A DNA stretch of 34,572 nt from a virus. The notes beneath the pieces are model-generated. The model made no database searches. It saw only the letters and a program-made list of their open reading frames with translations, and had not been told where the DNA came from. The stretch spans positions 1-34,572 of IMG/VR virus record IMGVR_UViG_3300025112_000077. The stretch is one strand, 5' to 3'. Positions 5,391 to 34,490 of the stretch are shown here, one piece after another (position 1 is the stretch's first letter; each line of letters begins with the position of its first letter). Both the position numbers and the translations under genes were made by a program.

Positions 5391-5439
5391 AGACCGGCAA
5401 CGGGTCCGGTTTGTCTGAAAATTCCGAAGGGGAAACACA

Positions 5440-6378
5440 ATGGCCGACGCATTCTTGACACTGTCCGATCTGACCACGATCAACGACGCCAATCTCGCAG
5501 ACCGGGACATTTCCGATTTGCTGGACGACGCGCCGTTGTTGGCACGTTTGGCCGCGGACGTCGTTCCGGGGACCGATCATAAATACGTCAAGGAAACGTC
5601 GGCGCCTGTCGTCGGTTTCCGCGCCGTGAATGACGGACTCGAAAACACGAAGTCCGCCGACACGCTGGTCACCATCAACTTGAAAATTCTGGACGCAAGT
5701 TTCGCAATCGACAAAGCGCTGGCCGACGCCTACATCGGCGGGCCGGAAGCCTACATTGGTCGCGAGGCCGCGCGGCATCTCAAGTCCGCATTTTTCCACG
5801 CCGAAAAACAAATCCTTTCCGGCACTGGGAACGAAGCGGACGGGTTCAACGGTTTGCCGGACGACGGCAACCTGAACGCCGTGGCCGATGATATGGTCGT
5901 CAACGGCGGCGGAACCACGGACTCGACCGCGTCGTCCGTGTGGGCCATTCGGTCCGCCGGCGATATGAATGATTGTGTGGCGATTGCCGGCGACAACGGC
6001 AAAATTGACATTGGCGATTCCGTCGTCCAACGTCTCGCCGGTTCTTCGACTGGTTCCTACCCGGCGTACTACACGCCGATCCAGGGATGGTTGGGCCTGC
6101 AAATCGGCGGCAAGTATAGCGTCGGTCGTTTGGCCAACGTCACCGAAGACAGTGGGAAAACCCTGTCGGACTCGATGATCGCCGACCTGTTGTCGGTGTT
6201 CCCGGCCGGCCGCGGACCCAACTATCTGGTGATGTCGCGTCGTTCGCTGAAGCAACTTCAGCAGTCGCGAACCGCCACCAACGCGACCGGCGCGCCTGCG
6301 CCGTTCCCGTCGGAAGCGTTCGGCGTTCCGGTGATCGTGTCCGACGGCGTGTCGGATGTCGAGACGCTGGTTAGCTAA
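5440..6378 (+). CDS. Major capsid protein
   Basis: The 312-residue product follows the protease-scaffold gene and precedes head-tail connectors, the standard place for the capsid subunit. The N-terminal segment (LTTINDANLADRDI, then LLDDAPLLARLAA) and the ending with a surface loop and FGVPVIVSDGV look like HK97-fold capsid proteins that are not made as a long delta-domain precursor. The start has the strongest SD of the region (AAGGGGAAAcaca before ATG 5440), consistent with high expression. The same 20-nt start context recurs at the tail tube gene. A perfect hairpin follows the stop. Confidence 0.88.
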   Translation: MADAFLTLSDLTTINDANLADRDISDLLDDAPLLARLAADVVPGTDHKYVKETSAPVVGFRAVNDGLENTKSADTLVTINLKILDASFAIDKALADAYIGGPEAYIGREAARHLKSAFFHAEKQILSGTGNEADGFNGLPDDGNLNAVADDMVVNGGGTTDSTASSVWAIRSAGDMNDCVAIAGDNGKIDIGDSVVQRLAGSSTGSYPAYYTPIQGWLGLQIGGKYSVGRLANVTEDSGKTLSDSMIADLLSVFPAGRGPNYLVMSRRSLKQLQQSRTATNATGAPAPFPSEAFGVPVIVSDGVSDVETLVS

Positions 6379-7267: not shown

Positions 7268-7788
7268 TCGGAATGGATTTGAAAGCGGTCCAGGGTCAAT
7301 TTCTCGACCGCAAAAAAGTATTGCGGCGAGTTAGCAAGTCAAAAATAAAGCCGTTGATAAAACAGGGCGCCTATGTGCGCAGGACGGCAAAAAAATCCAT
7401 CGCAAAACCGCGAATGAAAACAGTGGGGGAAATGACCCCCGACGAACGCCGTTCGTACGAACGGCGGGTGGTGGCGAACAAGTTGGCGGGGCTGCCAAGG
7501 CCAAAACGTCCGCTAGCGTCCAGTCGGCCGGGGGATCCGCCACGGTCGCAAACCGGAACGCTGAAAAAATTCCTGTTCTTTTCTTTTGATTCACGAACGG
7601 AATCCGTCGTCGTTGGTCCTGCGCGCATCCGTTCCGACGATCCAAACGCGCCGTCAACGTTGGAATTCGGCGGTTCGGCAACCATTCGCGGCCAACGCCG
7701 CACAATCGCGCCGCGTCCGTATATGGGGCCGGCACTGGCAGAAGAACAACCAAACTTCGCCGCGCTTTGGCGGAACTCTATTCGATAA
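7264..7788 (+). CDS. Putative HK97 gp10-like / minor tail (neck) protein
   Basis: This basic 174-residue protein shows the pattern of gp10-like or lambda gpZ-like neck proteins: a basic N-terminal helix (RKKVLRRVSKSKIKPL), the segment RPGDPPRSQTGTLKKF, a strand VVVGPARI, and the ending TLEFGG followed by IAPRPYMGPAL. The GDPP...TGxL...EFGG...RPF/Y-M-x-PAL order is characteristic. It acts at the head-tail interface or tail end during assembly. Its start overlaps the previous stop (ATGA). Confidence 0.72.
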   Translation: MIGMDLKAVQGQFLDRKKVLRRVSKSKIKPLIKQGAYVRRTAKKSIAKPRMKTVGEMTPDERRSYERRVVANKLAGLPRPKRPLASSRPGDPPRSQTGTLKKFLFFSFDSRTESVVVGPARIRSDDPNAPSTLEFGGSATIRGQRRTIAPRPYMGPALAEEQPNFAALWRNSIR

Positions 7789-7799
7789 GGGGAAACACA

Positions 7800-8249
7800 A
7801 TGGCCGTCGTTCTTGGAATGAATGCGAAGATGTATCGAAACTCCGGAACCTATGCTTCGCCGACGTGGGTGGAAGTGGATAGCGTCCGGGACGTGACGCT
7901 GTCGATGGAAACCGGCGAGGCCGACGTTACGACCAGGGCCGCGGCCGGTTGGCGCGAATCAATCGCCACGCTGCGGGACGCGTCGCTGGAATTCGAGATG
8001 GTTTACGATTCGGCCGGAACGCATTTCGCCGCAATCAAGACCGCATTCACGGCGGGAACCAATATCGAATTTTTGGTGCTGGACGGCGACAACGCCACGT
8101 CCGGTTCGCAGGGTTTGCGCGCTGAAATGTCGATCATGTCGTTCTCGCGAAACGAAGGCTTGGAAGACGCGTTGACCGTTTCAGTGTCCGCCAAGCCGAC
8201 GAAGCCGTCGACCGGTGGCGCCGCGCCGGCGTGGTATACGGCAAGCTAA
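7800..8249 (+). CDS. Major tail tube protein
   Basis: The 149-residue product (start ATG 7800, SD AAGGGG) precedes the tail chaperone frameshift pair, where siphoviruses encode the tail tube. It contains the family-like VRDVTLSMETGEADVTTRAAAGWRESIATL segment, with the conserved 'threading' turn after the first strands, then EFEMVYDSAGTHFAAIKTAF and the C-terminal LTVSVSAKPT strand. The first eleven codons of the longer possible reading frame have no SD and were excluded. Its start context is identical over 20 nt to that of the capsid gene, consistent with both being highly expressed structural proteins. Confidence 0.85.
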   Translation: MAVVLGMNAKMYRNSGTYASPTWVEVDSVRDVTLSMETGEADVTTRAAAGWRESIATLRDASLEFEMVYDSAGTHFAAIKTAFTAGTNIEFLVLDGDNATSGSQGLRAEMSIMSFSRNEGLEDALTVSVSAKPTKPSTGGAAPAWYTAS

Positions 8250-11800: not shown

Positions 11801-14800
11801 TGCGAAAAGTAAACGCCGGCGATCCTCTGAAAATTCCCGCGCGGACGTTCAACACGTTCGTCGATTCGGCGCAGCATTATTTAGACCGCCACCAATCGAC
11901 CGGACGTAACGCGGACGAAGTCACCAGGAACGCCGGCGTTGTATTGGTGCAAAACGGTTCCGCGGTGGACGTGAACCGGTTTGGCGTGTTGGCCGTAGAC
12001 GGGTCGATTATCGACCACGCGACGAACGCGGACGAATTCGCGCAACGTGTCGCGCTAACCGGACGCGTGCCGGTGGCGGGCGACCAGGGGACGCCGGTGG
12101 TGTTCCTGGAACCAGTGGCCGCGGGGAAAATCGGGCGCGCCGTCGTTTCCGGTGTGGTGCAGGTCCAGGTGGAAGTCCCGGACTTTGAAACGAAAACCTA
12201 CGCCGACGTAAAAACCGGCGAGTCTACGAAATTGACCGCGACGGACCGGGGATCCGCGAAAATTCTGGACATCACGGTCGACGCGTCCGGATCATTTCCG
12301 GCGACGGCGTGGGCGGTCGTGCGGTTGGGGAACACTACATCCGACGACGTGGCGGTATTTTTTCTGGACGAACACCTGGAACAAGGCGACACGTCGGGCG
12401 TTGACGCGTTCCGGGCGACTGCCTGGGACACAACAACAACTCCGGAAAGCTGGACGATTTCCGGTTCGACGGAAAAGGTATATGGGCAACTTTTCACGGG
12501 TGTCGCGTTCGACGATTCCGCGGTGTCGTGTGTTAGCCTGGACGGGAAGTGGTACGCGATCAGTGGCGGCGTTCAACACTTTACGGCAAAAGTTGCGACG
12601 GCGTCGTCGTCGGAAGAATGTGTAAACGTTACGCGGTTTCTCGGCACGGGTTCCGGGGTCACGCCGTCGAGTTTCGAAGCCTTCAACATATTCGGACTAA
12701 GTCTAAGCGTCGACGACTTGGTGTTCTGCGAATGGGCAGCGGCATCGTCGGCGCGTTGTGACGTCTTCAACGACGACGGTGGCGGACCTGCGCCGGATCG
12801 TGTCCCGCCGGGCCGGTTCGAAATCATCGCGAAATCGTCCGGCGAAGGAGACGAAAACCCGGAATGGGGTTGCGGCCTGGGGACGACGACGGCGGACGGA
12901 ACGACGACGCTACACGTGGACGCGGCTACGCTGGCCGGCGACGGTCTGGGTACGACCGGCGATTGCACGTTGGTGGTCAATCCTGGTTGTGGAATCGAAT
13001 TGGTGGCCGACGCGGTCGCCGTAAATGCGACGACGTTGGCCGGCGTCGGACTCGCGAAGTCCGGGACGTGTACGCTAGACGTGGACTACGGGTGCGGGTT
13101 GACGACGTCGGGAGATTCTATTGTCTTCGACGCCACGACGGTGGCCGGCGACGGGCTGTCCGTGTCGGGGACGTGTACGCTAAACGTCACGGCGGGTTGC
13201 GGTGTGGCAATCAACGCGGCCGGCGGCGTAGAGGTTACCGCGTCCGATTTGGCCGGGGACGGATTGACGCCGGGCGGCAGCGGGTGCGAACTCGACGTCG
13301 TTGCCGGTTGCGGCCTGGAAATAAACGCGTCCGGCGGCGTGGCGGTCAATGCGACCGAATTAGCCGGCGACGGGATCGGCGTGTCTGGGACTTGCACGCT
13401 GTACGTGATAGCCGGATGCGGTCTCCAAATAAACGGAAGTGGCGGCGTAGAAGTCGCCGCGGCCGATTTGGCGGGCAACGGCCTAACCGCGGCGGCGTCG
13501 GGTTGCGGACTCGACATCGATTGCACGTGGATCGAAAACAACTGCACGGTGTCCGGTGCGCAGGGTCCGCAAGGCGACACGGGCGCCGCGGGGCCGGCTG
13601 GTCCGCAAGGGAACCAGGGTTACCAGGGCGACACGGGCGCGGCGGGTCCGTGTCCAACGGTGGCCGTCGGGACGGTCAACACGACGTCGGGCGGTTCGGC
13701 GGCGGTGTCAGTCACGGCGGGCGGTTCGTGTTCGTACGATTTCGATTTTACGATCCCGCAAGGTCCGCAGGGGAACCAGGGCGACGCGGGGAGTGCCGGT
13801 CCGCAGGGTCCGCAGGGCGTGCCGGGGAGTACCGGGAGTGCCGGTCCTCAGGGGAACCAGGGCGTGCCGGGGAGTGCCGGTCCTCAGGGGGATCAGGGCG
13901 CGCCGGGGAGTGCCGGTCCTCAGGGGAACCAGGGCGTGCCGGGGAGTACCGGGAGTGCCGGTCCTCAGGGAAACCAGGGCGTGCCGGGGAGTACCGGTCC
14001 TCAGGGTGTGCCGGGGAGTACCGGGAGTGCCGGTCCTCAGGGGAACCAGGGTGTGCCGGGGAGTACCGGGAGTGCCGGTCCTCAGGGGAACCAGGGCGTG
14101 CCGGGGAGTACCGGGAGTGCCGGTCCTCAGGGAAACCAGGGCGTGCCGGGTAGTACGGGCGGGACAGGTGCAGCGGGTCCGCAAGGTGACGCGGGCGCGT
14201 CTGGTCCTCAGGGCGATTCCGGGTCTGGAATGACCGGAATTGACGAGGACACAACGCCGCAATTGGGCGGCAATCTTGACATGAATGGCCACCAAATGCT
14301 TTGGCCGATTGGTGTCGGGATAAACTCGAACAACGCCGACGGGTCGCTACACGTTCACACGGCGTCCGCCGGGACCGTGACCGCGTCGACGTCCGCCGAC
14401 GATATTGTCGTCGAGAATTCCGGATCCGTCGGAATGTCGTTCCTGACCCCGGACGGTTCGGCAAATCAAACGATCTACTTTGGAACGGAGTCGGCACCAA
14501 CGGCTGCGCGGTTGCGGTACAAGGCCGGGACCGGGGACTTTCAACTGGTCACCGGGACGTCGGGCGGGCTGGTCCTAACCGACGACGCGAACGTCCATAT
14601 TGGGTCGACCGGAATCGGGATCGGCACGTCGGCAACGCGAACCCTGGTCCTGCAAAATGGAACCGCGCCCGGTTCAAGTCCGTCGAACCGCGTCCAAATG
14701 TATTCCAAAGATTCGTCGATGATGGGTTCGCCGTCGGCGGAACTGTTCGTGCGAAACGAAATGGGGACCGAAACGCAATTGACGCGCCACGCGTTCGACT

Positions 14801-21677: not shown

Positions 21678-22541
21678 ATGAAACGGAGAACATTTATCGC
21701 CGCGGCAATGGTCGCCGCTATGGGCGTGACGGCGGACGCCGCGAAAATCGAGGACGTGCCGAAATACCTGCAGGACATTTCGGTAACGGTGCGGGCAAAA
21801 GGCGCTGAAGGTTCCGGAATCGCGTTCGTCCGCGACGGCGTGACGTGGGTTTGGACCGCGGCGCACGTGGTCGACGGGTTGCGGAAAACGCGTACCGTGG
21901 TCGACGGCAAGGGCGGAAAGAAAACGCTGGTAGAATTCGACGACGCGCAAGTCGTGCGGATCCTGTTGGAAAACGGGCGGATTGTCGGGCGGTTGAGTAT
22001 CGACGCGCGTGTCGTTCGGTATAGCGACGCGACATACGGACACGACTTGGCGTTGTTGCGCGTCCGGAAAAAGGGTTTCATTCCGACAAGTTGTCGGTTC
22101 TTCCTGGTCGACCAGTTGCCGAAGGTCGGGTCCGATCTGTGGCATTGCGGAAGCCTGTTGGGAAGTCCCGGCGCCGGATCCGTAACGCGCGGCACAATGT
22201 CGCAGTTGGGCCGCATTATCGGCGGGTCCAAAGTGATTTACGACCAGTGTACGGTTACGGCGTTTCCGGGTTCGTCGGGTGGCGCTGTCACAATGGCCGA
22301 CGGTCGTATCGTGGGAATGTTGGTTCGCGGAACGTCGGTGCAAGGGTTCAATCTAATCGTGCCGGTCCGACGCTGGCGGAAGTGGGCGAAGTCGGCGGGC
22401 GTTTTGTGGGCAATGGATCCCGCGGCAAAAATGCCAACGGCCGCGGTCCTGGACGCCATGCCAATCGAGGACGCCGGCGGCAACAAGTCCGCCAGTCCGC
22501 CGGACGGGAAGCGGTTCCCGGTGTTGATTCGCCGAAAGTAG
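21678..22541 (+). CDS. Second exported trypsin-like serine protease
   Basis: The 287-residue product has a Sec signal (MKRRTFIAAAMVAAMGVTADAA) and a trypsin-like domain with His63 (TAAHVV), Asp123 (GHDLALLRV) and Ser200 (PGSSGGA), all triad residues present. The family is the DegP/HtrA-type or trypsin-2 fold without a PDZ domain. The C-terminal 60 residues are disordered and basic. It is only distantly similar to the protease at 16658 and so is not a simple duplicate. It ends the long rightward block; a large inverted repeat follows. Confidence 0.85.
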   Translation: MKRRTFIAAAMVAAMGVTADAAKIEDVPKYLQDISVTVRAKGAEGSGIAFVRDGVTWVWTAAHVVDGLRKTRTVVDGKGGKKTLVEFDDAQVVRILLENGRIVGRLSIDARVVRYSDATYGHDLALLRVRKKGFIPTSCRFFLVDQLPKVGSDLWHCGSLLGSPGAGSVTRGTMSQLGRIIGGSKVIYDQCTVTAFPGSSGGAVTMADGRIVGMLVRGTSVQGFNLIVPVRRWRKWAKSAGVLWAMDPAAKMPTAAVLDAMPIEDAGGNKSASPPDGKRFPVLIRRK

Positions 22542-22626: not shown

Positions 22627-22698
22627 TGCGTTGTAAGGCGTCCGGATGTGGTCCCGCGGGGTTTGGGTCGCGGAAAAAACAACGCCGCGCCACAGAAA

Positions 22699-22712
22699 AA
22701 CCGATATGGGTT
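22699..22712. promoter_or_regulatory. Upstream imperfect operator-like palindrome
   Basis: AACCGATATGGGTT matches the perfect palindrome at 22756-22769 in 13 of 14 positions. It starts 57 bp upstream of that copy in the same control region. Two spaced copies of one palindrome are typical of repressor binding. The cognate regulator is not identified. Confidence 0.55.
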
Positions 22713-22717
22713 TTTTG

Positions 22718-22746
22718 GACAAAATTCCAAAATAGACAATTTTGTC
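22718..22746. promoter_or_regulatory. Inverted repeat GACAAAATT...AATTTTGTC
   Basis: A perfect 9-bp inverted repeat (22718-22726 and 22738-22746) with an 11-bp spacer, lying between the two operator-like palindromes and just before the promoter. A second short inverted pair, TTTTGG/CCAAAA, is nested at 22713-22732. It is AT-rich in a GC-rich genome and may bind a further regulator. Confidence 0.5.
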
Positions 22747-22748
22747 GG

Positions 22749-22776
22749 TTGAATAAACCGATATCGGTTATATACT
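22749..22776 (+). promoter_or_regulatory. Sigma70-like promoter for the small-gene cassette
   Basis: TTGAAT (22749-22754) and TATACT (22771-22776) are separated by 16 bp. The region is AT-rich compared with its surroundings, and the cassette starts at 22819. The spacer contains the perfect palindrome AACCGATATCGGTT, so a bound repressor would block polymerase. Confidence 0.65.
22756..22769. promoter_or_regulatory. Perfect 14-bp operator-like palindrome in the promoter spacer
   Basis: AACCGATATCGGTT is a perfect palindrome lying exactly between the -35 and -10 hexamers. A near copy lies 57 bp upstream. This placement is classic for repression by steric block. Confidence 0.62.
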
Positions 22777-22818
22777 GCCCGTGCGGGCGACACAACAACA
22801 CAAACGAAAGCGGAAACA

Positions 22819-23187
22819 ATGGACTACCACGAAAAACGACGACGCGAACAACAAATCGAAGCGGCGAAAATCGCGGAAACGGAAGCGGTAAAGGCCGCGG
22901 GCGACCGGACGAAAATCTGGAAAGAAGCCGTCGGGTTGTGTGCGACGTGGAACGACGTGTGGGGTCTGTTCGACGAAATGCAAAAAGTCTACGGGTGGAC
23001 GCTGGACGAAAATTGCGAATCGGACGACATTTGCGAGTTGTTGACCGCCGGTTGGGTCAACGCAATGGACATGATCGACGAAGGAACAATCGAAGATGGC
23101 GACGACGACACGGCGTTCGAAATGGCAATGGCGCCGGTCTGGAATTACTACCCGGACTTGTCGAACTCTCCCCATCCTTCCCGATAA
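22819..23187 (+). CDS. Hypothetical acidic protein, first gene of the repressed cassette
   Basis: Not recognised. The 122-residue product begins with a charged helix (KRRREQQIEAAKIAETEAVK), has aromatic-rich middle parts (WNDVWGLFDEMQKVYGW) and is strongly acidic in the second half (DMIDEGTIEDGDDDTAFE), ending near WNYYPDLSNS. Acidic small proteins of this style can be DNA mimics or inhibitors, but there is no specific evidence. It is the first gene after the palindrome-bearing promoter. Confidence 0.6.
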   Translation: MDYHEKRRREQQIEAAKIAETEAVKAAGDRTKIWKEAVGLCATWNDVWGLFDEMQKVYGWTLDENCESDDICELLTAGWVNAMDMIDEGTIEDGDDDTAFEMAMAPVWNYYPDLSNSPHPSR

Positions 23188-23200
23188 CAGTTGACAACCC

Positions 23201-23225
23201 GCCCGCCGGGCCGAACCCGGCGGGC
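23201..23225 (+). terminator. GC-rich 10-bp hairpin between 22819 gene and next gene
   Basis: GCCCGCCGGG (23201-23210), loop CCGAA and CCCGGCGGGC (23216-23225) make a perfect stem. It is not followed by a T-tract and is 26 nt before the next start, so it may be an attenuator or RNA-processing element instead of a full terminator. Confidence 0.5.
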
Positions 23226-23227
23226 AT

Positions 23228-23256
23228 GACCAGGAAAACGAAGGGGACGAATGATG
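23228..23256 (+). repeat. Start-associated 29-nt repeat, copy A
   Basis: The 29 bases run from GACCAGGAAAAC through GAAGGGGACGAATGATG and include the SD and start of the gene at 23254. Here the repeat lies outside any gene. Confidence 0.8.
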
Positions 23257-23625
23257 GCGGAACGAACGACACACACGCCTGGACCGTGGGAAGTGTTCAG
23301 AACAGACGAACACATCGAAAAGCAATCAGGGGTTACTGTCTACATCGGCGACGACGACGCGGCGGGGCGGTTTGCGGCGGTGCGCGGGGTCGATCTGGAC
23401 GAAGACGCCGCGAACGCGCGATTGATCGCGGCCGCGCCGGCGATGCTGGCCGCATTGAAGGAACTGGCCGACGCATACCAGTTCGCGTGGAAAGTCGGCG
23501 GTCGCGTCGACGACGTCGACAACGCCGCGACGCGATACAAGATCATTGCGGACGCAATCACGAAGGCGACCGGGGCGGATCCGCGCGTCGTTGATTACGA
23601 CCAGGAAAACGAAGGGGACGAATGA
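23254..23625 (+). CDS. Hypothetical phage protein with HTPGPW start and ANARLIAAAP motif
   Basis: The 123-residue product begins MAERTTHTPGPWEVF and contains ANARLIAAAPAMLAALKELADAY, the signature of a phage protein family of unknown function that is widespread in temperate phages. The C-terminus ends DQENEGDE, encoded by the start-associated repeat of the next gene. I chose ATG 23254 over 23251 because AAGGGG is 7 nt away. It probably works with its neighbours in the lysogenic or early regime. Confidence 0.72.
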   Translation: MAERTTHTPGPWEVFRTDEHIEKQSGVTVYIGDDDAAGRFAAVRGVDLDEDAANARLIAAAPAMLAALKELADAYQFAWKVGGRVDDVDNAATRYKIIADAITKATGADPRVVDYDQENEGDE

Positions 23626-23627
23626 TG
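23599..23627 (+). repeat. Start-associated 29-nt repeat, copy B
   Basis: Identical over all 29 bases to the copy at 23228. Here it also encodes the C-terminal DQENEGDE of the upstream protein. Confidence 0.8.
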
Positions 23628-24314
23628 GCACGATACGAATGGGACATCGAGACAATCGAACACTTCCCGGCGGGCGTGATAAAGCACGCGCCGGAAGGCG
23701 CGGCCGACGTGGTCGACCACTGCCATTTCGACACGCTGCGTGAAGTTGTGGAGTGGTTTTCGGACTATGGTTTCTCGCCGGGGGTTGAAGACATGGATCC
23801 AAAGGCGACGCATAGAAGCTATGCCGTCGTTCTGGTGAAGGACAGCGCGAAGGGCAGGTGTTGGGCGTATGCGGACGCGGCCGGGATGGCCAACTGTTTC
23901 GCCGGCGACGAAGGGGACAACGTGCCGGTTCGGTTCCTACTTGAGTGGGAACAGCACGGGGCCGGGATTGTCGAAGGGTTGTTCGGTCGTCCCGGAGAAA
24001 CGGTATCCGTAACGGTTGCGGGCAAATCGTGGTATGCGTGGCAACGTGAAGATCCAGAAAACTACGAATTCGACAACCCGGAATGGCAGGAAATCAACAG
24101 GGGCGCAACGTGGCGAAAGCGCGGCAAGGGGCATCAGGTGGAAGTGTCCGGGCGACGGGCGACGCTGAAGGACATTGCCGACGCTATGCGGGACATGGGA
24201 GAAAGCTATGTCGACTTTATGGAAGCCGAAGGGCGGGCAGCGGGTCGCGCGTTGATTGCGGGAGCGCGTCGGATTGTCGAACAATTGGACCAGGACAACG
24301 AAGGGGACGAATGA
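23625..24314 (+). CDS. Hypothetical protein of about 229 residues
   Basis: Not recognised. The product is acidic and appears to have an N-terminal half with strands (YEWDIETIEHFPAGVI, SYAVVLVKD) and a C-terminal half with WYAWQREDPENYEF, HQVEVSGRRATLKDIADAM and a helix full of Ala/Arg (AEGRAAGRALIAGARRIVEQ). The end, DQDNEGDE, is coded by the next copy of the start-associated repeat. The product has no membrane segment. Function unknown. Confidence 0.6.
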   Translation: MARYEWDIETIEHFPAGVIKHAPEGAADVVDHCHFDTLREVVEWFSDYGFSPGVEDMDPKATHRSYAVVLVKDSAKGRCWAYADAAGMANCFAGDEGDNVPVRFLLEWEQHGAGIVEGLFGRPGETVSVTVAGKSWYAWQREDPENYEFDNPEWQEINRGATWRKRGKGHQVEVSGRRATLKDIADAMRDMGESYVDFMEAEGRAAGRALIAGARRIVEQLDQDNEGDE

Positions 24315-24316
24315 TG
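24288..24316 (+). repeat. Start-associated 29-nt repeat, copy C
   Basis: Differs from copy A by one base (GACAAC for GAAAAC). It encodes DQDNEGDE at the end of the upstream protein and contains the SD and start of the gene at 24314. Confidence 0.8.
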
Positions 24317-24694
24317 AAAACCCGAACCTACAAAACGGCCGACAAGCAATTGTTGCGGGACGTTATGGTCAACGACTGGCCGGAATGGTTTTTGGACGTC
24401 GCGAAACACGCCACGTTTCAAGGAATCCACGCGCAATACTTCAACGCCGGATTGTCGGGCGGGGCCGCGCTGTCCATGAAACGAAAAATGTGCCCGCGTG
24501 GATCGTTCAACGAACTGGCGTTGAATGCGGGTTGTGATGTCGGGGAAGCAATCGCGGCACTGGAACCGGACGCCGTCGCGCAGTTGGTGCGGCATCTGAA
24601 ACTGGTGGCGGCGGGCGAGACTGGCAAAAAGGCAACAAACCGCGGCGAACTGCGGGACGCCGCGGCGCGGATGAAATCATTTCGGAATCAGTAA
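24314..24694 (+). CDS. Hypothetical 126-residue protein
   Basis: Not recognised. The product has a basic N-terminus (MKTRTYKTADKQLLRD), a middle with WPEWFLDVAKHATFQGI and a C-terminal helix rich in Ala and Leu (VGEAIAALEPDAVAQLVRHL). Two Cys residues (CPRGSF, GCDVGE) may be structural. It may act as a small helical binding protein. Start is inside a repeat copy. Function unknown. Confidence 0.58.
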   Translation: MKTRTYKTADKQLLRDVMVNDWPEWFLDVAKHATFQGIHAQYFNAGLSGGAALSMKRKMCPRGSFNELALNAGCDVGEAIAALEPDAVAQLVRHLKLVAAGETGKKATNRGELRDAAARMKSFRNQ

Positions 24695-24707
24695 ACAACA
24701 AACCGAC

Positions 24708-24736
24708 GACCAGGAACACGAAGGGGACGAATGATG
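24708..24736 (+). repeat. Start-associated 29-nt repeat, copy D
   Basis: Differs from copy A by one base (GAACAC for GAAAAC). It is non-coding here because the upstream gene stops at 24694, so the sequence is conserved for its own sake. Confidence 0.8.
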
Positions 24737-24913
24737 GCGGAAGAACAAACGCCGTTTTATATGCGGATGCCGGCCGCGTGGCTGGACGAAATCGACAAGC
24801 GGCGCGGCAAGGCGTCGCGGGCGGAATATGTCCGGGAGTGTATCCGCGACCGAATAGGCCGGCGGAAATTCCCGGCCGCGCGTGGACAGGGCCGGCCGCG
24901 GTTGGACGACTAA
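24734..24913 (+). CDS. Ribbon-helix-helix-like small DNA-binding protein
   Basis: The 59-residue product looks like a CopG/Arc-type ribbon-helix-helix protein: strand TPFYMRMPAAWLDEI, a helix with RGKASRAEYVRECIRDRI, and a basic tail (GQGRPRLDD). Such proteins repress their own promoters or act as antitoxins. It ends the rightward cassette. Its stop overlaps by four nt (CTAA) with the stop of the leftward gene, so the two operons converge. It is a candidate for the regulator that binds the palindrome at 22756, but this is untested. Confidence 0.65.
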   Translation: MAEEQTPFYMRMPAAWLDEIDKRRGKASRAEYVRECIRDRIGRRKFPAARGQGRPRLDD

Positions 24914-26658
24914 TCGTCCGACGCCGGCAATTCGCGGACGACGCGGAACCCTGTCGAAGCGTGCGGGACGGTTTCGTGTATAGCCCTCAACGCCGCGGAA
25001 CGGCCTTTCCACGGCAACGACGTAAACGTCCCGGATCGCAGTATCGCGCGCGGCGTACCTTTACGGTCTACGATTGTTGTCGACGTCCATTCTTCGACGT
25101 TGCCAATCGTGTCGAACAACCCCCACGGATTCGCGGGACAACTGGCGACGGCGTCGGGGCGTTGTATCTTTCGCGGGCCAACAACGGCCGCGGCGGAAAC
25201 GGCGGCGGCACTGTCGCCAAGCCACCAGGACGTTTGACTACCCGCGCGGCACGCGTATTCCCATTCGATCGACGTCGGCAAACGGTAGGTTTCGCCGGAC
25301 TCGTCGGACAACCATTTACAAAACGCGTTCGCGTCAACGCGTGTAATGTTGCGGACCGGGTGGTTTATGGGCGGTCGACCGTGTTTCGAATTGTTCCAGT
25401 TGAATTCCCGCGAACGGAGCCAACGCGACACGCCGTCCGCGGCGGACCGGCGTCCAGTTCCGCCGCGGGTTCCGTATTGTTCCGCCGTCGACAAATACCC
25501 GGTGGCCTGTCGAAAACGCTGCCATTGGTCGACCGTTATTTCCGTCGTCCCAATGTAGAAACCGGCAACCGACGCAACGCGGCGCGGGGATTCCAGGGCC
25601 AACGAATCAAGGACGAATTGCGGTTGTGGTTTGGTGTCCGTAGTAATGTCGTCGAGCATTCGCGCGACGGTGTCCGCGGCGGTTCCCGCGACAAACGTTC
25701 CCGGCGGAATCAATGAAAGCGGCACGCCGACGGGTCCGGTGGCGCGTAACGCGTGGCCGGAATTGGCCGCGAAGTCCTGTTGATAAAACGTCGCGTCCGC
25801 GGCGGTGACGTGTGCGGGTTCGACGGTGCGCCACCTGGACGGTGGCGGGGTGGGTGTCTGCAACCAGAATCCCGCGGCGGCGGCAACGCCAACAGCGACC
25901 AGGGCGGACACGATGTAACGTTGTCGGCGCCAAATCGGCCGGCGTAGTCTGTTGGCAATCGCGACGCCAAGTTGTTCGGCGGTTCCCGACCACTCGCCAT
26001 TCCAAACCGAAACCGCAAGCGGTGCCAAGTCGTGTGGCCACGGCGCGGAAAGCGGATCACTTTTCGGCAAGTCCGTTCCGGTTCGAAGTCGGTACGTCAA
26101 AGCCAACAACGAAAACAGGTCTTGGCAACGCGGAAACAACAGGGACGGAAACGGCGGCGGTTGATCGTGCGACACGGAGTCCGACAATCCGGACAAATAC
26201 AACACGTTGTCCGTTCCCAGAATTACGGAACTCGCGACGATGTGGCCGTGTTGTTCGTCCAGTCCGTGACAGTAGCCAACCAGTCGCGACAATTCGCGAA
26301 CCAGGGCGGCGGTTCGTTCCGGGTTGAGTCGCTGCCCAGAAATGAGGGACTGGTCGATTGTTTGGCCGGCAACCAATCGGTGAACGACAAACAATTCGCC
26401 GTCGTGTATTCCCATTTCCAACGGCAACAAAAGTCCGACCGGCGCGGCCGGCGCCAACGATTGCCGAATCGTTGCCAGTTGATTCAACAATGACAATTCG
26501 TCTTCGACGGTATCGACCGGAACGAAGTCGACGACGACAGGTCCGACGTGCGGCCGTTTCAAAAACAACGGCGCCGGGTTCATTGTCTCGCGGCGTGTTC
26601 CGCCACGGGATTCGACACGGTGGAATTGTGTCGTTGTCTTTTCGTTACGAAGTTGCAT
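24910..26658 (-). CDS. Pseudokinase - transmembrane - formylglycine-generating-enzyme-like fusion (moron)
   Basis: Residues about 80-235 of the 582-residue product align with a Ser/Thr kinase C-lobe (LFVVHRLVAGQTIDQSL). The catalytic loop reads HGHIVASSVI where HRDLKPxNI is expected, and the DFG position reads LSGLS, so it should not be an active kinase. One membrane helix lies at about 248-266. Residues 313-575 match the FGE-sulfatase fold (IPPGTFVAG, DTIGNVEEW, FRVVREL), but the catalytic Cys pair of aerobic FGEs is missing (KGRSAALR instead), so it is probably a binding domain. Such fusions are common in planctomycetes. A perfect SD (GGAGGG) precedes the start. Adjacent to the integrase, it is likely expressed in the lysogen. 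Confidence 0.8.
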   Translation of the reverse strand: MQLRNEKTTTQFHRVESRGGTRRETMNPAPLFLKRPHVGPVVVDFVPVDTVEDELSLLNQLATIRQSLAPAAPVGLLLPLEMGIHDGELFVVHRLVAGQTIDQSLISGQRLNPERTAALVRELSRLVGYCHGLDEQHGHIVASSVILGTDNVLYLSGLSDSVSHDQPPPFPSLLFPRCQDLFSLLALTYRLRTGTDLPKSDPLSAPWPHDLAPLAVSVWNGEWSGTAEQLGVAIANRLRRPIWRRQRYIVSALVAVGVAAAAGFWLQTPTPPPSRWRTVEPAHVTAADATFYQQDFAANSGHALRATGPVGVPLSLIPPGTFVAGTAADTVARMLDDITTDTKPQPQFVLDSLALESPRRVASVAGFYIGTTEITVDQWQRFRQATGYLSTAEQYGTRGGTGRRSAADGVSRWLRSREFNWNNSKHGRPPINHPVRNITRVDANAFCKWLSDESGETYRLPTSIEWEYACRAGSQTSWWLGDSAAAVSAAAVVGPRKIQRPDAVASCPANPWGLFDTIGNVEEWTSTTIVDRKGTPRAILRSGTFTSLPWKGRSAALRAIHETVPHASTGFRVVRELPASDD

Positions 26659-33866: not shown

Positions 33867-34397
33867 ATGTCGGACATGGAACGGATGGCGCGTGTGGTTT
33901 TGAAACAAACAACCGGGCTAGATGTGCATTGGAAGGACTTCCCAAAGGTGGCGACTGACCGCATTTGGTCAACGTTCCAGGGGGACGAATGGGAAGCGTT
34001 GGCGGATGGTGACGAGACGGAACAAGAAATCCGCCAGTTGGTTAGGGGCGAATTGCGGAACCTCCACCCGGACGCGTTTACCGTTCACGAAAACGAATTG
34101 ATTTTGTTCGAGATAGAAAACACCAGTCTTTTGTCCGTTGAAAAGTTGCAACGATACGTGAACGCGTTTTGGTTACTGGACGCGCTGGAATGGTCGTTGG
34201 GGCTGGTCGTGACCTGTCGTTACGGAGTGAACACGACGCGGTTGCCGTTACTGACCATTACGGCGGGGCTGTTGTCTTTGGGTCCGACGGAACAAGCGGG
34301 CGGGGTTGGTGCGTCTAAACAAAACGAAATGGGCAACGTAGCACGCGGGCTGTTGCAGACTGTTGCAAAATCTGCAACAGAAAAAAAACGGGGGTAA
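33867..34397 (+). CDS. Hypothetical 176-residue protein
   Basis: Not recognised. The product has DRIWSTFQGDEWEALADGDE, then HENELILFEIENTSLLSVEKLQRY, NAFWLLDALEWSLGLVVTCRYG. The EIEN segment after a hydrophobic strand resembles the core of PD-(D/E)XK folds in which Lys has been lost, but the match is weak. The C-terminus (GGVGASKQNEMGNVARG) lies inside a 45-nt direct repeat whose second copy is at 34446. It starts at ATG 33867, 6 nt after AGGTGG. Confidence 0.55.
   Translation: MSDMERMARVVLKQTTGLDVHWKDFPKVATDRIWSTFQGDEWEALADGDETEQEIRQLVRGELRNLHPDAFTVHENELILFEIENTSLLSVEKLQRYVNAFWLLDALEWSLGLVVTCRYGVNTTRLPLLTITAGLLSLGPTEQAGGVGASKQNEMGNVARGLLQTVAKSATEKKRG
34300..34344 (+). repeat. 45-nt direct repeat, copy 1 (inside the 33867 gene)
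   Basis: The segment beginning GCGGGGTTGGTGCGTCTAAA and ending AACGTAGCAC recurs at 34446-34490 with one mismatch (position 34320). Copy 1 is coding, copy 2 is not, with a period of 146 nt. Confidence 0.8.
34350..34380. repeat. 10-bp inverted repeat near the end of the last gene
   Basis: CTGTTGCAGA (34350-34359) and TCTGCAACAG (34371-34380) are perfectly complementary across 11 nt (CTGTTGCAAAA). An A-run and CGGGGG follow. It may be a terminator for the rightward block, or a binding site. Confidence 0.55.
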
Positions 34398-34445: not shown

Positions 34446-34490
34446 GCGGGGTTGGTGCGTCTAAAAAAAACGAAATGGGCAACGTAGCAC
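34446..34490 (+). repeat. 45-nt direct repeat, copy 2 (non-coding)
   Basis: Second copy of the segment at 34300-34344, lying in a stretch with no gene. Confidence 0.8.

Follow-up and report, generated by a model that had tools for sequence, protein, structure and literature searches.

A 29-nt repeat, GACCAGGAAAACGAAGGGGACGAATGATG, occurs four times in a 34,572-base virus record (the window, that is, the whole stretch of DNA analysed here), each time at the start of a different gene. We regard it as probably a duplicated translation-initiation module, which would supply a standard strong start to each of four unrelated accessory genes. The four copies lie in one cassette that is absent as a whole from a close relative, and a different repeat with the same architecture precedes small genes in prophages of Pirellulaceae.

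The window is high in GC, and its genes include those for a terminase, portal, major head, major tail, tape measure and tail fibre proteins and a tyrosine integrase, as well as a Sak4-like annealing protein, a Holliday junction resolvase, a replication initiator and a helicase loader. Nearly all relatives of the terminase that occur in sequenced genomes come from Planctomycetota, which points to planctomycete bacteria as the probable hosts of this phage. The tail fibre gene contains collagen-like Gly-X-Y repeats at 13546-14208 (periods of 9, 36 and 45 nt), an array that seems different in the close relative, and a 45-nt direct repeat (34300-34344 and 34446-34490, 98% identical) is found near the right end of the record.

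The repeat and the genes that follow it

A pattern search of the window located the four copies at 23228, 23599, 24288 and 24708, with 0, 0, 1 and 1 mismatches, respectively; these are the positions, and the limit of one change per copy, given in the original prediction. The copies and the genes around them are as follows.

22819..23187, + strand, leader gene: 122 aa; no family match; no repeat in front
23228..23256, + strand, repeat copy A: exact; upstream part non-coding
23251..23625, + strand, gene A: 124 aa; phrog_1273 (function unknown), E = 4.2e-17, residues 2-110
23599..23627, + strand, repeat copy B: exact; encodes the C-terminal DQENEGDE of gene A and its stop
23622..24314, + strand, gene B: 230 aa; no family match
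24288..24316, + strand, repeat copy C: one change; encodes the C-terminal DQDNEGDE of gene B and its stop
24311..24694, + strand, gene C: 126-127 aa; no family match
24708..24736, + strand, repeat copy D: one change; upstream part non-coding
24731..24913, + strand, gene D: 60 aa; probable ribbon-helix-helix (CopG-like) regulator

The repeat was absent from all 100 dinucleotide-preserving shuffles of the window. Its last 19 nt (ACGAAGGGGACGAATGATG) are invariant in the four copies and have no other site in the window even when three mismatches are allowed. The differences between copies are limited to A9>C in copy C and A10>C in copy D, and leave the Shine-Dalgarno (SD) sequence and the start unaffected. 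In every copy GAAGGGGA (the SD) is present and an ORF opens with a tandem ATGATG (at 23251, 23622, 24311 and 24731), so that, as had been predicted, each carries the SD and start of the next gene; all four lie at ORF starts in a single orientation. Copies A and D have a longer stretch in common (35 nt, 97% identical), which extends through ATGATGGCGGAA. The ORF ends and translations also confirm that copies B and C are coding, with the TGA of the repeat serving as the stop codon of the preceding gene, and that copies A and D are non-coding, the ORFs upstream of them stopping at 23187 and 24694.

Recent duplication of a gene, which the original prediction had named as a finding that would speak against it, is ruled out as the source of the array. 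Proteins A to D show no mutual similarity outside the tails encoded by the repeat, and the array is therefore not a tandem duplication of one gene. In protein A, this tail lies beyond the phrog_1273 match, which stops at residue 110 of 124. No relatives of proteins A and B were found among viral contigs, phage records and 294 planctomycete genomes, and the proteins of the leader gene and of genes B and C gave no accepted family match. Protein D matched RHH_1 with an E-value of 0.009, below Pfam's cut-off, and its predicted structure (pLDDT 71) has two main helices, whereas that of protein B (pLDDT 43.5) was too poor for a structure search.

As a translation-initiation module, the repeat would consist of a purine/A-C-rich leader, the strong SD GAAGGGGA, a short spacer and the tandem ATGATG, whose internal TGA can act as the stop codon of the preceding gene. 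The four repeat-led genes would probably be transcribed together from one regulated promoter; at copies B and C, where stop and start overlap, translation would probably be coupled by termination-reinitiation, and at copies A and D the same module would direct fresh initiation. The most likely route of spread would be recombination in which the start region was transferred from one gene to another, and the copies may have been retained because the whole unit works. A stop-start overlap with an SD is an established route of coupling, and Planctomycetes are reported to be intermediate in SD use, with few strong SDs (PMC6728339).

With the anti-SD assumed to be planctomycete-like, the repeat starts have predicted anti-SD pairing energies of -8.9 to -9.4 kcal/mol, whereas 324 ATGs in the window average -4.6 kcal/mol. 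The reading as a module is favoured by the placement of every copy at an ORF start, by the unrelatedness of the four proteins, by the two changes between copies, both of which avoid the SD and the start, and by the genes for the major capsid and major tail proteins, which are expected to have a high output and use a related AAGGGGA signal. The predicted SD is stronger, however, at several other genes of the window that lack the repeat. Moreover, the first 12 nt (GACCAGGAMMAC), which lie upstream of the SD, are nearly as conserved as the rest, beyond what pairing with the SD needs, and this leaves room for a trans-acting factor.

Such a factor (a CsrA-like protein, a phage protein or a small RNA) might bind the repeat and regulate translation of the four genes, a reading that we consider quite unlikely. 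It would account for the conserved part upstream of the SD and for the two GGA motifs at repeat positions 6-8 and 18-20, which are unchanged in all four copies while the variable bases lie between them; the planctomycete genomes G019-G026, furthermore, carry 1 to 16 CsrA homologues each, as against the single copy usual in model bacteria. However, the second GGA lies within the SD and is expected there anyway, since any SD that contains GGA has it. CsrA sites usually display their GGA motifs, one of them at the SD, in hairpin loops; the four copies are predicted to fold differently, with no conserved hairpin presenting the GGAs. The locus matched no Rfam family of structured RNA, and antisense matches in the window reach no more than 11 nt.

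An accessory cassette with a putative promoter of its own

The repeat-led genes belong to a self-contained cassette of about 2.2 kb that consists of a promoter-like site with a candidate palindromic operator, the leader gene and then genes A to D.

22674..24904, + strand, cassette: replaced by about 50 bp in IMGVR_UViG_3300020477_000945; borders good to a few bases
22699..22712, + strand, operator-like palindrome, upstream copy AACCGATATGGGTT: one of only two sites in the window at 0-1 mismatch, the other being at 22756
22749..22776, + strand, sigma-70-like promoter TTGAAT-16-TATACT of the cassette: consensus match 9/12
22756..22769, + strand, perfect palindrome AACCGATATCGGTT, candidate operator in the promoter spacer: 0 mismatches, both strands
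23201..23225, + strand, inverted repeat GCCCGCCGGG-CCGAA-CCCGGCGGGC: perfect, 10 bp; predicted hairpin without a T tail; before copy A only

Three promoter-like sites were found in the region where 1.6 are expected, and the match of TTGAAT-16-TATACT is weak when taken alone. The palindrome AACCGATATCGGTT within this promoter has a near copy 57 bp upstream, and it is plausible that the cassette would be regulated by its own ribbon-helix-helix protein D through the palindromic operator. No tRNA was found.

The record IMGVR_UViG_3300020477_000945 is about 92-93% identical to the window around the cassette; the alignment runs to position 22680 and resumes at 24909. Because this relative lacks the promoter, palindromes, leader gene and genes A to D as a block, the repeats are part of an accessory operon gained or lost whole. 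The borders of the cassette (22.67 and 24.90 kb) are away from any repeat, and all copies are missing together.

These borders bear on another reading, by which the repeat would chiefly be a homologous boundary: recombination between copies, within one phage or between phages, would add, remove or swap whole genes with their starts intact, and any role in expression would be secondary. The arrangement would suit this: repeat and ORF form units of 371, 689, 420 and about 206 bp, a crossover between two copies would delete whole genes cleanly, and the phage encodes the annealing protein and the resolvase mentioned above. On the other hand, 29 bp is short for ordinary homologous recombination, the sole indel seen at the locus has its borders off the repeats, and no record with a subset of the four genes was found. 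The suggestion in the original prediction that the repeat serves as a homologous site for gene swapping thus gained no direct support here, the cassette being present or absent whole; swapping at the repeats is plausible, and we regard a boundary site as the main role of the repeat as rather unlikely.

The genes on either side of the cassette have features of their own. Immediately upstream is a gene for a trypsin-like serine protease (21678-22541), which is unusual for a phage. On the other side, a gene with an FGE-sulfatase domain (24910-26658, minus strand) is kept in the close relative, from which it differs densely near the C-terminus (over a dozen differences in about 36 bp, at about 24970-25005); the 3' side of this patch is identical in the relative, and the pattern is like that of a diversified ligand loop. 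An origin of this variable tail driven by reverse transcriptase (DGR) was rejected, since searches of the window and of four related records turned up no reverse transcriptase, and the window gave no template repeat.

Start repeats elsewhere in the phage and in planctomycete prophages

The exact repeat is known from one genome only among the records searched. In IMG/VR, neither the exact 29-mer nor its core was found in any other record, and 18 records with a related terminase gave, with three mismatches allowed, a single distant look-alike. In GTDB genome contigs, a search with 23 specified bases found none, and 392 Planctomycetota genomes (one mismatch allowed) gave one isolated match, in which the ATG is changed to ATC. 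The only close relative spanning the site is without the cassette, and no other phage with this repeat was found, several of the related records being fragments.

The phage has a second, shorter repeat at the starts of two structural genes.

5427..5445, + strand, 19-nt start repeat AAGGGGAAACACAATGGCC, copy 1 of 2: at the major capsid gene (start 5440)
7787..7805, + strand, 19-nt start repeat AAGGGGAAACACAATGGCC, copy 2 of 2: at the major tail protein gene (start 7800)

The 19 identical nucleotides span the SD, the spacer and the start of both genes. The capsid gene of a relative, 90% identical at the protein level, has another spacer (AAAAAGGGGCTGAATCATGGCC); simple conservation of each start therefore does not account for the match between the two. 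The sequence CGAAGGGGA is common to the start of the capsid gene and to copy D, in keeping with a preference of this phage for AAGGGGA as its strong SD.

In Pirellulaceae prophages whose terminase is related, another repeat, CAAACGGAGACACA-N3-ATG or a close form, precedes several unrelated small genes, 6-8 different ones in the two prophages scored below.

L086 12633-16802 and L117 13777-18918, positions on the reverse strand, prophage start-associated repeat sites: also in L090, L116, L069 and L063

In three host genomes (22 Mb), all nine exact copies of CAAACGGAGASACA lie in prophage stretches, in one of the genomes as judged from matching coordinates. At two of the prophage starts, about 30 nt further upstream are also common (GGCTCATGTGTGTCACCGAAACGGTT). 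Like the repeat of the window, that of the prophages is an SD-containing leader before several unrelated small genes, with exact copies confined, in the host genomes searched, to prophages; it differs in sequence, in its more divergent copies, in the genes that follow and in its strand, which is opposite to that of the terminase gene. The same architecture in another sequence speaks for the reading as a translation-initiation module. The original prediction would have been weakened if the 29-mer stood next to no start in any relative; this is literally what was found in the records searched, but a different start-associated repeat is present in these prophages.

The tendency of starts within a locus to resemble one another was measured by comparing all pairs of SD-preceded starts, a pair counting as alike if at least 21 of 28 positions agreed, with column shuffles that keep the SD as the null, because a null across loci was inflated by related loci. 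Thirteen alike pairs were counted in the window, including pairs for both ATGs of the tandem, against 0.08 in shuffles; the cluster K phage Anaya, as positive control, gave 10 (0.15 in shuffles), two Pirellulaceae prophages gave four each (0.01 or less), and the lambda nin region gave none. The excess in the window also favours the reading as a module.

Between the conserved repeat-led genes F02 and F10 of the prophages, the small genes differ from genome to genome and many of them keep the repeat. The expectation that gene content varies while the repeat stays is thus borne out there, but not in the window itself, and the observation is the one from other genomes that favours a role of the repeat as a recombination boundary.

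The identity of the four copies could also be explained by recent copying alone, without selection. The repeat would then be a neutral residue of duplicated start regions too young to have diverged, kept by nothing beyond the need for some SD, and this seems to us very improbable. The small number of differences between copies, the failure of the exact repeat to appear elsewhere in our searches, and the start pair of the capsid and tail genes, which also looks copied, are all in line with it, as is the TGA within ATGATG, which copies A and D keep where no ORF ends, as if derived from a junction. Blind copying, however, would not favour stretches that stop at the start codon or within two codons of it, with unrelated coding sequence after, and both cluster K phages and other planctomycete prophages have independent start-associated repeats of their own.

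A broader proposal, which goes beyond the module and which we find improbable as it stands, is that Planctomycetota phages generally mark their exchangeable small accessory genes with a start sequence specific to the lineage, which would be read by a dedicated phage or host factor, such as a CsrA paralogue. If so, newly acquired genes would at once come under common translational control.

Comparison with known systems

Lambda has, in its nin region, chained small genes with conserved stop-start junctions. The window resembles it in joining small accessory genes by ATGA-type overlaps with a purine-rich SD, at copies B and C only. The nin starts, however, agree at no more than 14 of 28 nt and over 10 nt in a row, against 24-27 of 28 and 19-29 nt in the window, and a shared junction of this kind was found to be much weaker than the window repeat. 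The stoperators of cluster A mycobacteriophages are likewise short, asymmetric phage sequences repeated in many copies, but they act on transcription and have no tie to an SD and start (PMC3203893).

The closest parallel is found in the start-associated sequences (SAS) and their extended form (ESAS) of cluster K mycobacteriophages (Pope et al. 2011, PMC3203893). The SAS is a 13-bp sequence a few bp upstream of the start, with 11-19 copies across half of the genome, and favours genes whose intergenic space exceeds 50 bp; the extended form, with 17-bp imperfect inverted repeats just upstream, makes up about half of the sites (PMC3203893). As in the window, its conservation goes beyond the need for SD pairing, an objection that was raised by Pope et al. 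2011 (PMC3203893), and its function was still listed as needing experimental verification in a 2025 study (PMC12699233).

The likeness to SAS noted in the original prediction holds for position, orientation and the unrelatedness of the genes: both are short, asymmetric, SD-containing repeats just before the ATG, in one orientation and in front of different gene families, and both are situated in a non-structural accessory region of a temperate siphophage and absent from the host DNA searched. It does not extend to the sequence, since the cluster K consensus GGGATAGGAGCCC has no match in the window with up to two mismatches. The window repeat is also longer (29 nt, including the start codon, against 13 bp upstream of it), its four copies are in one operon, and two of the four overlap the preceding gene. 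In contrast to ESAS, there are no conserved 17-bp inverted repeats, the only inverted repeat being the 10-bp one at copy A, which is unrelated in sequence. SAS are also retained among related phages whose gene sets differ, whereas the window repeat was found in no second phage.

What appears to be new here is the presence of start-associated repeats in planctomycete phages and prophages, in at least two forms unrelated in sequence, although earlier reports of such repeats may exist. The two unrelated planctomycete versions suggest that the arrangement has arisen repeatedly and that small genes are added in this way more widely than has been recognised, and the window, with four starts within 1.5 kb, offers a compact case in which it can be tested. 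In short, by analogy, the window repeat is one that works like the SAS of cluster K while standing apart from them in sequence.
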